Shown: positions 48,941-55,458 of the stretch, one piece after another
How positions within the stretch are numbered: the first letter of the stretch is position 1
Layout of the letters: every line of letters begins with the position of its first letter
From: Verrucomicrobiales bacterium
GTDB lineage: Bacteria > Verrucomicrobiota > Verrucomicrobiia > Verrucomicrobiales > DEV007
DNA: 64,000 nucleotides
Assembly (NCBI GenBank): GCA_029233965.1
Contig: JARGOP010000011.1
Span: 1-64,000 of the forward strand
Direction: 5' to 3'
Translations under genes and position numbers: made by a program
Notes under the pieces: generated by a model
Database searches by the model: none
What the model was told of the DNA's origin: nothing
The model's input: only the letters and a program-made list of their open reading frames with translations

Positions 48941-51226
48941 TCAAAACGCATCAAACGCAATTTGCTGCGGGGCGACACCCAGCCCCGTCAGCATCTTGCG
49001 GGAGGCGTTGATCATCATGGGCGGCCCGCAGAGGTAGTACTCGATGTTCCGGGGCGAAGGGTGGGTTTCGAGGTAGTGTTTCCGCACCACTTCATGGATG
49101 AAACCGACCCTGTCGTCCCAATCATCCTCCGGAAGTGGTTCCGAAAGTGCGAGGTGAAAGCGGAAGTTCGAGTGCTCTTTCGCCAGCGCTTCGAAGTAGT
49201 CCTCATAGAAGATTTCCTGCTTTGAGCGGGCTCCATACCAGAAGCTGATTTTGCGGGCGGTCTTCCCGTTTTCAAACAGTTCGCTGAGGTGGGCCCGAAG
49301 CGGCGCCATGCCGGCTCCTCCTCCGATATAGACCATTTCTTTCTGTGTCGGCTTGATATGGAAATCACCAAACGATCCGATCGCCTTGACGGAGTCTCCG
49401 GGCTTGAGCGCATAGACATAGCTGGACCCGACGCCGGGGGGGCAGTCCTGTCCTGCGGGAGGCATCGCGATCCGGACGTTGAATTTCACGACGCCGTCAC
49501 GCCCTGGGTTGTTGGCGATCGAGTAGTTGTTTCGCCGGCCTTCCTCACGATTTCTGACGCTGAGATCAAAGAGGTGATGTGCCTTCCAGACGGAGGCGAA
49601 GGGCTCCGGAACGGCAAGGTTGCGAAAGTGAATCTCGTCGAAGGTCGGGATCTCGAGTTGAAGGTAATCGCCCGGAGTAAATTGAGTGAGCGTGTCAGGA
49701 TTGTGCGGCTCCAGCGTGAGTTCCGTGATGAACGTGGCGACACGGCGATTTTCGATGACTCGGAATTCGAAGGTCGCGGGTTCCTTTGCGCCGGCTCCGC
49801 CGCGTTCTTCGATGTTCAGAAAAAGGCGGCCGTTTTTCTCCCTGAGAGGATAGGTGGCGAGTCCCCGGCAGATCGGGGTCCGGGCAGGGGATCCGTCGAT
49901 GAGATGGAAGCGACCGTTGTGTTTCGGGCACTCGACGATCTTTCCTTTTACAAGGCCGTCAGCGAGATGGGTGTTTCCGTGGGTGCAGACTCCGTCGGTG
50001 GCGTGGAGTTGATTGTCATCGTCGCGATAAAGCGCGTAGGTGCGATTGCCGTGGTCGAACCGGATCACCTCCTCCGTTCCGAGATCCGCGGCGGCACAGA
50101 CTTCGATCCACCCTTCGGAATCCGGTTTCGCATCGGAGCGTGGCGGCTCTTCCCTGGGGGCGGAACGGGAAGGTTCGGGAAGCCTTCGTTTCACGTGGTA
50201 AGCCGGATCGCGCACCTGCCGAAGCAGGGTCGGGATGATTTCGCGCCAGCAGGAGAACAGGGACGGGTAAACCGCAGGGCAGTCGTCCTTGATCGCTTCG
50301 TGCAGGGCGGGAACAGCATGGTAGGGGACGAGCGGGAACATGTGGTGTTCGACATGGTAGTTCATGTTCCAGTAAAGAAACCGGTTCACAAGATGAGTTC
50401 GGAAAGTCCGGCAGTTGAGCCGGTGATCGAGGACATTCTCAGCAAGCCCGGTGTGCTGAGTGAGCCCGTAGACCAGCATCAGCCAGGTGCCGAAGAGATG
50501 CGGCAGGCCGACGTAGAAGAGGGGAAGGAAGCTTCCGGTGAGGAAAGAAATCGCAATTACCGCAACATAGATCCCGAGATGAATCCGGGCGGTCAGAAAA
50601 ACCCGGCGATATTCGGACTCGGGAATGAAGGTCTTTTCGGATTCCCGGAGTCTCCCTGCGGTGTGAAGGAAGAGGCGGCTGAAGTAATCGGGGTAGGTCT
50701 TCAATGCGAAGAGTGAAAGGATTAACCCTTTGATGTCCGGTGGTCTTGGCACGGCAATCTCCGGGTCGCGACCGACAATGATCGTGTCGCTGTGATGCCG
50801 GTTGTGGGACCATCGCCAAACGACGCCTTCCCGCATGACCATGAACGAGGCGATTTCGTAGAGAGCATTGTTCATCCAGTCGGTTCGGAATGCGGTACCG
50901 TGACCGGCTTCATGCCAGCGTGAGTCGGCGGTCGAAGCATAGAGGGCTGCGTAGATGAGGTAGGGGATGGCAACCCGGGCCGTGTCTTTGCAAATAAACG
51001 TCAGGTAGCCGAACCCGAAGAGGAGACCAAACCAGATCAGGGTGTCCCGGATCGCCGGACCGTTCCGGCGGACGAGAAGTTTTCGCATCGTCTCCCGCGG
51101 CACCTCACATTGATACCAATCCGCCCCGGCAAGACCCAGGGTGATGGCCCGGTCGGAGTTCTTCCGGTTCAACGTGTAGTCCTTGAGGTGAGTCTGAGGG
51201 ACCGGCGGCGCTTCGAGTTCGTTCAT
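48941..51226 (-). CDS. fusion: membrane fatty-acid-desaturase-type oxygenase, Rieske ferredoxin and NqrF-type reductase
   Basis: 761 residues in one frame. Residues about 55-345: membrane di-iron desaturase/hydroxylase fold with HEAGH (105-109), HNRHH (141-145) and HVEHH (291-295) and about four helices. Residues about 372-475: Rieske domain, ligands Cys414-His416 and Cys433-His436 (CTH, CPKH). Residues about 485-761: flavin reductase like subunit F of Na-pumping NADH:quinone reductase, with RNNYSIAN (FAD), GGGAGMAPL (NAD) and YYLCGPPMM. Electrons would flow NADH to FAD to Rieske [2Fe-2S] to di-iron to substrate. Separate proteins of these kinds act together in MocDEF rhizopine O-demethylation. 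The substrate is unknown. The galactose-mutarotase gene lies 24 bases upstream on the same strand. Confidence 0.9.
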   Translation of the reverse strand: MNELEAPPVPQTHLKDYTLNRKNSDRAITLGLAGADWYQCEVPRETMRKLLVRRNGPAIRDTLIWFGLLFGFGYLTFICKDTARVAIPYLIYAALYASTADSRWHEAGHGTAFRTDWMNNALYEIASFMVMREGVVWRWSHNRHHSDTIIVGRDPEIAVPRPPDIKGLILSLFALKTYPDYFSRLFLHTAGRLRESEKTFIPESEYRRVFLTARIHLGIYVAVIAISFLTGSFLPLFYVGLPHLFGTWLMLVYGLTQHTGLAENVLDHRLNCRTFRTHLVNRFLYWNMNYHVEHHMFPLVPYHAVPALHEAIKDDCPAVYPSLFSCWREIIPTLLRQVRDPAYHVKRRLPEPSRSAPREEPPRSDAKPDSEGWIEVCAAADLGTEEVIRFDHGNRTYALYRDDDNQLHATDGVCTHGNTHLADGLVKGKIVECPKHNGRFHLIDGSPARTPICRGLATYPLREKNGRLFLNIEERGGAGAKEPATFEFRVIENRRVATFITELTLEPHNPDTLTQFTPGDYLQLEIPTFDEIHFRNLAVPEPFASVWKAHHLFDLSVRNREEGRRNNYSIANNPGRDGVVKFNVRIAMPPAGQDCPPGVGSSYVYALKPGDSVKAIGSFGDFHIKPTQKEMVYIGGGAGMAPLRAHLSELFENGKTARKISFWYGARSKQEIFYEDYFEALAKEHSNFRFHLALSEPLPEDDWDDRVGFIHEVVRKHYLETHPSPRNIEYYLCGPPMMINASRKMLTGLGVAPQQIAFDAF

Positions 51227-53289: not shown

Positions 53290-55458
53290 TCAGGACGCTG
53301 CCTCTCCCGACATTTCGAGGCGTTTGCGATTGATGAGGATCAGAATTTCCGCAGTCGCCCTGGCATCGCAGAGGGCGCGGTGATGCGAGTCGAGAGGGAT
53401 TCCAAATTTCCGACAGAGATTGGCGAGCCCATAGGACTTCAAGCCGGGAAAGACCCGCCGCGAAGTCACGACGGTGCAGAGGGTGGGGCAATGGAACAAC
53501 TCTCCGATTCGTTCGAACTCCGCGCGCAGAAAGCCGTAGTCGAAGGTCGCGCGATGAGCGGCAAAGACAGCTTCTCCGACGAACTCGCGAAAGTCGTCGG
53601 CGATTTCGGCAAACTTTGGAGCGTCGGCGACCATTTCATCGGTGATCCCGGTAAGCGCGATGATCGCTTTCGGAATTCTCCGGCCCGGGTTCACGAGTGA
53701 AGTCCATTCGCCGAGGATCTCGTCGCCTCTCAATTTCACGGCTCCGATTTCAGTGACGCGGTTCCAGGCGGCCTTGCTGCCGGTGGTTTCAATATCGACG
53801 ACAACATATTCCTGCTCCGGATCAACCGCCCACCTCACCGCACCGACTTCGACCCGGAATCCACCGCGCTTCAGTTGCTCCAGACGTGTGAGTTGGGTTC
53901 GGCTGATGCGGTCCCCTTCGCTTTTGATTTCGAGGAAGCGAAGTCCCTCCGGGCCGTGCACCATAAGATCGGGAAATCCACTGCGATGAGCCCGGTGATT
54001 CTCCGCCATCAGTCTGAGGATCATGGCAAGACCTTCCGGCGGAGCTTTGGAGACGAGGAGGCAAACAATCTCTAATGTTCCGGGAAACCAGGGAACCAGT
54101 GCGTTCGCGGTTCCCTCGTGTCTTTCCCAGGTCGAACGAATGCGCTCAAGTGATCCTTCGGGATCACGCAGCGAGGCGAGTCTGCCTTCGATCAGGTCAC
54201 GGTTGGCCTCGAAAAATTTCCCCGAGTCGAGCCCCCACGGTTTCCTCTCAAATTCGTTGTGAATCGGAGCCCCGGATTCGAAGAGGAGATCCCAGAAGAG
54301 CAGTCCGAAGAGCTGATTCCAGACGAGGTTCTCGGTGTGAAAGGCCTCTTCGCCTTTTCTCGCGAGCAGCGAAATGACTCCTCCTTCGGGTCGGTCACGA
54401 TTTGTTTCATCAATCGTGAAGACTCTCGCTTCACGCAGGAGGGACGTGAGTCGGCCGACCTTCTTTTTCCGGAACTTGCGCTCGTAAAAGTCCTCAGCAA
54501 AGAGGAGTTCGGCATCGCACGAGGGGTCGTGAATCATGCGCGTCAGTTCGGCCTCCGCTTCCTCCCGTTTCCCGCCTTGAACCAGCAACCTCGCGGTGCG
54601 TTCGGTGGCGGGAAATTCATCGGAAAAGCGATAGACTCGAAGCGCTTCGCCGGGTCTCCCGCAGCGCTCCAGTTCCCGACCCAACCGATACACAGCGCGA
54701 TGGTAGAGTGTCGCAGATTCGGGATCGTCGAGCTTCGGCCACTCCTCGACGGTCCCGGCGAGCCGACTGACCACCCCGGGATCGGGGGCATCGAGTTGCG
54801 CCGAAACAGTCAAGAGGGAGAACGCAGCACGGGCCGCCTCTCTGGATTCAAAACGGCTCTGAAACCCGGCTTGAAAGGGATTCCGCTGAATCAACCCGAG
54901 ATCGCGAAGGGCCAGTGCGGTGAGGCCGGAGCTGAGTTTTCCGTAGTAGAGGAAAAAGAGATAGTCGAGCGTTTCGAGATGATCCTGAACGATGAATTGC
55001 CTGCGGAGAGTCTCATCGAAGCAATCCTCAAACGAGAGTCGCGCCTGGATCAAGGCGACGAGGTCCCGCTTTTTCACATTCGAGGGGACGGGTTGACCGG
55101 TCTTTTCACGAACGAGGGTGACGAGGTCGGGGCGTTTGTGGAGCGCGAGGAGATCGGGCCAGTCCTCATTCCGGGGCGCCCGGACGAACTCTTTCCCGCC
55201 GAGTTCCTCCAGGGCTTTGGGAACGGACTCGATTTCTTCATAGCGGAGAGATTCGCGGGAAAAGACGCGGCCCTTCCGGTTCGCGAACCGGACATAGAGG
55301 CATTGAGCATCGGGGGAAAGGGACCCGAAATCGTGGATAAAGCGCTGATGTTCACCCTCCAGAAGATTATCCATTTTTCTCCCGAGGAATCCCAGCATCT
55401 CGTGAAAATGATCGAGATAATAGCGGGATTGAAGAACCTGAGGAGCGTTCGGAGGCAC
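53290..55458 (-). CDS. FAN1-like structure-specific nuclease fused to a DnaQ-type 3'-5' exonuclease
   Basis: About 722 residues from a GTG at 55458. The N-terminal region SRYYLDHFHEMLGFLG, SLSPDAQCLYVRFANRKGRV matches bacterial FAN1, a nuclease acting on interstrand cross-links and flaps. At about 493-549 lies the VRR-NUC core, GFPDLMVHGPEGLRFLEIKS, with the PD...ExK catalytic set. Residues about 550-722 are a DEDDh exonuclease: VVVDIETTGS, HRATFDYGFL and HHRALCDARA carry the Asp-Glu, Asp and His-Asp residues. Known FAN1 proteins end after VRR-NUC, so this is a fusion. An alternative GTG at 55539 would add 27 unlike residues. It diverges from the ABC ATPase gene. Confidence 0.88.
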   Translation of the reverse strand: MPPNAPQVLQSRYYLDHFHEMLGFLGRKMDNLLEGEHQRFIHDFGSLSPDAQCLYVRFANRKGRVFSRESLRYEEIESVPKALEELGGKEFVRAPRNEDWPDLLALHKRPDLVTLVREKTGQPVPSNVKKRDLVALIQARLSFEDCFDETLRRQFIVQDHLETLDYLFFLYYGKLSSGLTALALRDLGLIQRNPFQAGFQSRFESREAARAAFSLLTVSAQLDAPDPGVVSRLAGTVEEWPKLDDPESATLYHRAVYRLGRELERCGRPGEALRVYRFSDEFPATERTARLLVQGGKREEAEAELTRMIHDPSCDAELLFAEDFYERKFRKKKVGRLTSLLREARVFTIDETNRDRPEGGVISLLARKGEEAFHTENLVWNQLFGLLFWDLLFESGAPIHNEFERKPWGLDSGKFFEANRDLIEGRLASLRDPEGSLERIRSTWERHEGTANALVPWFPGTLEIVCLLVSKAPPEGLAMILRLMAENHRAHRSGFPDLMVHGPEGLRFLEIKSEGDRISRTQLTRLEQLKRGGFRVEVGAVRWAVDPEQEYVVVDIETTGSKAAWNRVTEIGAVKLRGDEILGEWTSLVNPGRRIPKAIIALTGITDEMVADAPKFAEIADDFREFVGEAVFAAHRATFDYGFLRAEFERIGELFHCPTLCTVVTSRRVFPGLKSYGLANLCRKFGIPLDSHHRALCDARATAEILILINRKRLEMSGEAAS

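Follow-up and report, generated by a model that had tools for sequence, protein, structure and literature searches.

FAN1 fused to a DEDDh 3′–5′ exonuclease

The gene at 53290..55458 on the minus strand of the window (the whole stretch of 64,000 nucleotides analyzed here) encodes a FAN1-type nuclease that runs on into a DEDDh 3′–5′ exonuclease, and we hold it to be practically certain that this architecture is genuine and that it stands for a subfamily of FAN1 proteins. Analysis of open reading frames revealed a minus-strand frame open from 55539 to the stop codon at 53290-53292, in which a GTG start at 55456-55458 yields an intact product of 722 amino acids, and relatives align with this product along its length. 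Residues are numbered here in the 749-aa frame, and the number in the 722-aa protein is that value minus 27.

Pfam placed FAN1_HTH (PF21315) at residues 40-119 (55183..55422; E = 2.2e-20), VRR_NUC at residues 462-570 (core at 53830-54156; E = 1e-14), and RNase_T/DEDDh (PF00929) at residues 579-733 (53341..53805; E = 1e-36), all above the gathering score and with E values of a size that rules out chance matches. When PDB sequences were searched with phmmer, P. aeruginosa FAN1 (PaFAN1; PDB 4r89, 4r8a, and 5y7g), represented by 4r89, matched residues 28-573 end to end. This alignment, together with the AlphaFold helices, assigns residues 120-396 (54352..55182, borders approximate) to the remainder of the FAN1 N-terminal domain and the helical solenoid, and the VRR-NUC nuclease region follows, upstream glutamate included, at residues 397-573 (53821..54351). 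Its metal-site residues E403, D524, E537, and K539 line up with E386, D507, E522, and K524 of PaFAN1, the residue names for PaFAN1 and human FAN1 being those given in the accessible part of PMC4348246. While PaFAN1 stops after VRR-NUC, the window protein continues into the exonuclease, the catalytic set of which (D-x-E, D, H-x4-D) is complete (D582, E584, D667, H720, and D725); the best PDB sequence match of this portion, over residues 577-734, was a PolC exonuclease. Human FAN1 has the same order of NTD, TPR, and VRR-NUC and the same catalytic residues, but it differs in having no 3′–5′ exonuclease domain and in carrying, according to its published description, N-terminal UBZ and PIP elements.

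The two halves adjoin almost without a linker, and neither a stop codon nor a frameshift was found between them in the window sequence. Likewise, the AlphaFold2 model, built from a 43-sequence alignment (mean pLDDT of 91.3, pTM of 0.82), has no disordered linker between the halves. In fold comparisons with VIA-align 2, residues 8-541 of the 722-aa model matched PaFAN1 and its overall fold (4r8a; Z of 27.6 over 516 residues, rmsd of 4.3), whereas residues 546-718 matched the S. aureus DinG exonuclease (Z of 25.5, rmsd of 1.8), which was the nearest to the exonuclease half among the fold matches listed, with Z values of 23 to 25.5 to this enzyme and E. coli epsilon. The coordinates and frame of the original prediction were correct, its GTG start yielding 722 amino acids, and its reading of a FAN1 N-terminus, a VRR-NUC domain, and a full DnaQ-like domain was borne out by Pfam, phmmer, and the catalytic residues; structure prediction, to which it had looked for a check on the FAN1 assignment, supports FAN1. 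An assembly artefact was rejected, since numerous independent genomes, as well as named plasmid records, show the same join.

Distribution and apparent common origin of the fusions

The same prediction had treated the fusion as an oddity of one gene, a view that did not hold, since many fused relatives were found in its own order and in Proteobacteria, and the fusion proved to be a conserved FAN1 subfamily in two bacterial phyla. Within the order, 24 of 56 genomes contained FAN1_HTH, each of them with the exonuclease in the same open frame (722 to 833 aa). Across a sample of the phylum, FAN1_HTH was present in 5 of 387 genomes, fused in the genome of the window, G286, and G179 and unfused in G256 and G360 (531 aa). 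Proteobacteria, the phylum of a Zoogloea genome, gave 55 matches in 54 of 398 genomes, 11 of them fused (10 intact and one, in G453, split across two frames) and 44 unfused; the sequence was read for 35 of the latter, the other 9 being classed by open-frame length alone. In the phylum to which a Portibacter genome (G430) belongs, 395 genomes yielded three FAN1_HTH matches, all unfused, and no match was obtained in 246 and 299 genomes of the phyla of G432 and G433, respectively, or in any of the 14 control genomes; a FAN1 with a divergent N-terminus would therefore escape this profile, and the zero counts do not establish absence.

Plasmids recorded for Bradyrhizobium and Pseudoalteromonas include five named fusion genes, three of which carry the annotation "exonuclease domain-containing protein." No paper describing FAN1 joined to a 3′–5′ exonuclease was found in the open-license PMC literature. 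The architecture, being visible in public annotation, is thus undescribed rather than unseen. One genome (G473) carries two copies of the fusion (L156 and L157).

To place the fused proteins relative to unfused FAN1, a tree of the FAN1 half was used, comprising the window protein and 36 other fusions (L177 included, L166 not listed, and L176 dropped because the junction pattern missed it) as well as 31 unfused FAN1 proteins. The 37 fusions and the 31 unfused proteins fell on opposite sides of one branch with support of 100/100, and the subfamily therefore apparently has one origin. Fusions across phyla have the junction sequence DPxQxYVVVDxETTG in common. Catalytic residues were counted in the window protein and 36 other fusions, among them the frame-split copy L166 but not L176 or L177. 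Several rows of these samples are near-copies (L011/L012, L017/L020, and L019/L101). In the residue count, the VRR-NUC residues (PD..ExK and the upstream glutamate) were invariant in 37 of 37, as were the D, D, H, and D of the DEDDh set, and its E was kept in 36. The one divergent protein, L158 (2203-4464), reads DIG in motif I where others have DIE, so that the motif I glutamate is lost, and judging from this residue its exonuclease may be dead. Over pairs of fusions, the identities of the two halves were correlated (r of 0.89), and the exonuclease half was better conserved than the FAN1 half in every pair (mean of 59% versus 40%), which argues that neither half is decaying.

The fusion gene has a conserved chromosomal position in much of the genus, with mnmA and a sugar ABC transporter ATPase gene as neighbors, and it is therefore an inherited chromosomal gene there. 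Of the 23 genus genomes with a completeness of 90% or more, 17 contain the fusion, one has the exonuclease only, and five have neither; its absence from some near-complete genomes shows that the gene is dispensable.

Source of the exonuclease domain

A tree built from 115 DEDDh domains grouped the fusion exonucleases, with support of 97, with 25 DEDDh-GIY-YIG-type (UvrC/Cho-like) proteins, a class in which GIY-YIG was verified by Pfam in three of the four proteins scanned (L025, L037, and L062; none was found in L045), the others being assigned to it from their length and the position of the domain alone. The fused domains also adjoined further proteins of this type and stood apart from PolC; hence, an origin from PolC was rejected in spite of the best PDB sequence match. 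The top NCBIfam match was PRK07883, a DEDD exonuclease family. The DEDDh-GIY-YIG proteins, relatives of PRK07883, thus possess the nearest exonuclease module by tree, and in them a DEDDh exonuclease is likewise joined to an incision nuclease. They differ from the fusion in that their incision nuclease is GIY-YIG, a domain not found by Pfam in the window protein, and in that their exonuclease is N-terminal.

Inner branches of the DEDDh tree are weak, and the fused exonucleases fail to form one clade in it (three changes), so that a single capture of the exonuclease is argued from the FAN1 tree and the shared junction. A stand-alone DEDDh exonuclease of G020 (L105, 6742-7500) nests among the fused ones with support of 95, indicating that the exonuclease can persist without FAN1. 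No FAN1 was found in G020, nor any FAN1 remnant beside this orphan, and the orphan lies outside the conserved gene neighborhood of the genus; it is either what remains of a fusion after loss of the FAN1 half or a relocated copy. The tree also placed near PolC the C-terminal DEDDh domains of a set of clostridial proteins of about 510 to 530 aa (L063, 386-1924; L094, 3915-5516; L058; L069; and L071), and a weak OB-fold was seen in L063.

Gene neighbors and the DinG-type helicase

Of 31 unfused loci, 24 have a DinG-type helicase gene 3′ of FAN1 and on the same strand, a fraction that may be inflated, since the 20 proteobacterial unfused loci with wide flanks are, except for G675, the top-scoring FAN1_HTH matches. 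Downstream of the fusions, no such gene was detected at any of 35 loci (41 fusion rows, 6 of them repeating a gene), even at E values up to 10, and the sampled fusion genes differ in this respect from most of the unfused FAN1 genes sampled. Flank lengths differ among loci, and seven of the 31 unfused FAN1 genes, with a downstream flank of about 2.3 kb or more, are also without an adjoining helicase gene. Because the contrast follows the tree, it represents one or a few events, not 24, and we regard it as a lead, not a law.

The genome of the window has a DinG-type helicase elsewhere, and none of the genes flanking the fusion in the window is a repair gene. One window gene of separate interest, a 761-aa ORF at 48941-51226 on the minus strand, combines a fatty acid desaturase domain with a Rieske domain and with a FAD/NAD module resembling ferredoxin reductase; from its domain content, it is a putative self-sufficient desaturase or hydroxylase.

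The words FAN1 and VRR are absent from a review of DinG-like proteins (PMC11981726). The accessible part of PMC9635880, citing Iyer et al. 2006, places the VRR-NUC subfamily T1p21 upstream of helicases, and the link between FAN1 and helicases may therefore already be noted in Iyer et al. 2006.

Individual loci offered further observations. The helicases encoded downstream of unfused FAN1 at L115 (1260-3578) and L116 (4962-7240) match PD-(D/E)XK weakly at the N-terminus, in which they resemble the "EndoDinG" group, and that of L116 is split into two frames. Directly upstream of three fusions lies a gene for SRAP (SOS-associated, abasic-site), at L176 (5164-5913), L157 (4941-6284), and L156 (1859-2329), two of these fusions being those of G473 and one residing on a conjugative Bradyrhizobium plasmid.

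Candidate role and alternative explanations

In our judgment, the repair of interstrand crosslinks in bacteria is little understood outside UvrABC, as is, for the most part, what FAN1 does in bacterial physiology. FAN1 is found beside DinG, DEDDh exonucleases are fused to DinG, and FAN1 is fused to a DEDDh exonuclease, and from these pairwise combinations we infer that all three serve crosslink or adduct repair. In the accessible part of PMC12345164, deletion of S. aureus DinG (ExoDinG; PDB 8zef and 9ii8) is reported to sensitize cells to mitomycin C and formaldehyde, with both DinG activities required, and MrfB of B. subtilis is described as a DEDDh exonuclease for mitomycin lesions. ExoDinG thus resembles the window protein in that its DEDDh module, the closest by fold among the matches listed, shares a chain with a partner and is required for resistance to crosslinks; it differs in that its partner is a helicase and its exonuclease N-terminal, whereas here the partner is FAN1, the exonuclease is C-terminal, and Pfam found no helicase domain in the chain. 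The MrfA/MrfB pair, compared by description and not by sequence, shares the DEDDh exonuclease acting on mitomycin lesions, but it consists of two proteins with a helicase partner and no FAN1.

By analogy with these systems, a role of the fusion in crosslink or adduct repair appears rather probable. The fuller explanation, that the fusion belongs to a distinct bacterial FAN1 subfamily that brings its own 3′–5′ exonuclease to a two-polarity repair of crosslinks or adducts, seems to us an evenly balanced proposition, and a division of labor with the FAN1 half on the 5′ side and the DEDDh half on the 3′ end of the gap is put forward tentatively. In such a scheme, the FAN1 half would bind where a crosslink or bulky adduct presents a 5′ flap or a gapped junction, cut, and then digest in the 5′-to-3′ direction, while the DEDDh half would remove the 3′ end at the same gap, be it a stalled primer end or a 3′ end left by incision. 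The gap would thereby be opened or widened and readied for refilling or recombination, and the exonuclease would digest part of what a helicase unwinds in unfused systems. The explanation as a whole is favored by the fold, the intact active sites, the conservation of both halves, the helicase contrast, and the SRAP genes ahead of three fusions; telling against it are the dispensability of the gene, the G020 orphan, the lost glutamate of L158, the clustering of the helicase contrast on the tree, the seven unfused genes that also have no helicase neighbor, and, in the genome of the window, the DinG-type helicase elsewhere and the lack of repair genes around the fusion. The original prediction went further and had one enzyme process both strands around a lesion, which is possible; the evidence is more direct for an enzyme that works at ends of both polarities, with VRR-NUC acting on the 5′ side and DEDDh on 3′ ends, perhaps of one and the same strand. 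Equally speculative is the idea that bacteria have two alternative FAN1 machines, one with a DinG-type helicase directly after it and one with a built-in 3′–5′ exonuclease, the latter being a self-contained, two-polarity system of lesion excision that would unhook a crosslink and clear DNA ends of both kinds without a dedicated helicase.

Of the competing explanations, the one that survives best, although unlikely, is that the main job of the exonuclease is excision at mismatches or slipped strands, its 3′–5′ activity complementing the 5′–3′ activity of FAN1 outside crosslink repair. FAN1 has roles at slipped repeats, and a single chain with both polarities would be well matched to bidirectional excision, but no mismatch-repair neighbor was seen, and, among tested proteins, the closest relatives of the exonuclease module act on crosslinks. 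Slightly less credible is an anti-phage or mobile-element nuclease with no part in repair. Its patchy spread across phyla, the plasmid copies (one plasmid being typed conjugative), and the resemblance of some proteobacterial neighbors to candidate defense proteins fit such a role; however, the conserved chromosomal place in the genus speaks against it, the PADLOC matches of the fusion reflect the DEDDh domain only, and none of 25 viral loci and no phage record matched the FAN1 half across most of the query. RNases occur among DEDDh folds, and RNase T matched the DEDDh half at Z values of 19 to 20, so that a module processing RNA or single strands (RNase T/oligoribonuclease-like) and unrelated to the lesion of FAN1 could be envisaged; we consider this improbable, as both sequence and fold are closer to the DNA exonucleases of DinG, PolC, and epsilon.

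Least probable, and very much so, is that the exonuclease half is the replicative proofreader (epsilon) or its stand-in and that the FAN1 half only brings it to forks: although 20 of the 24 fusion-bearing genomes in the order, that of the window among them, have no PF00929 match other than the fused domain, Pol III epsilon has a C-terminal polymerase-binding tail that is missing here, where the domain ends at residue 733 of 749 and leaves no room for it; the half passed the broad model TIGR00573 (114.9 against a cut-off of 71.5) but missed the epsilon equivalog cut-offs (107.9 bits versus 196 for PRK05711 and 106.3 versus 222.7 for dnaQ_proteo); and five near-complete genus genomes (G005, G022, G029, G030, and G032) are without any PF00929 match. 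Moreover, the DnaE1 of the same genome keeps the complete PHP proofreading motif HHDHEHCDH, as this motif is given in the accessible part of PMC12926913.

Crosslink or adduct repair remains the preferred reading. The couplings of FAN1 with a DEDDh exonuclease, of FAN1 with DinG, and of a DEDDh exonuclease with DinG suggest that FAN1, DinG, and DEDDh exonucleases act on the same lesions, and the FAN1-DEDDh subfamily may inform work on eukaryotic FAN1, whose exonuclease is 5′–3′ only.
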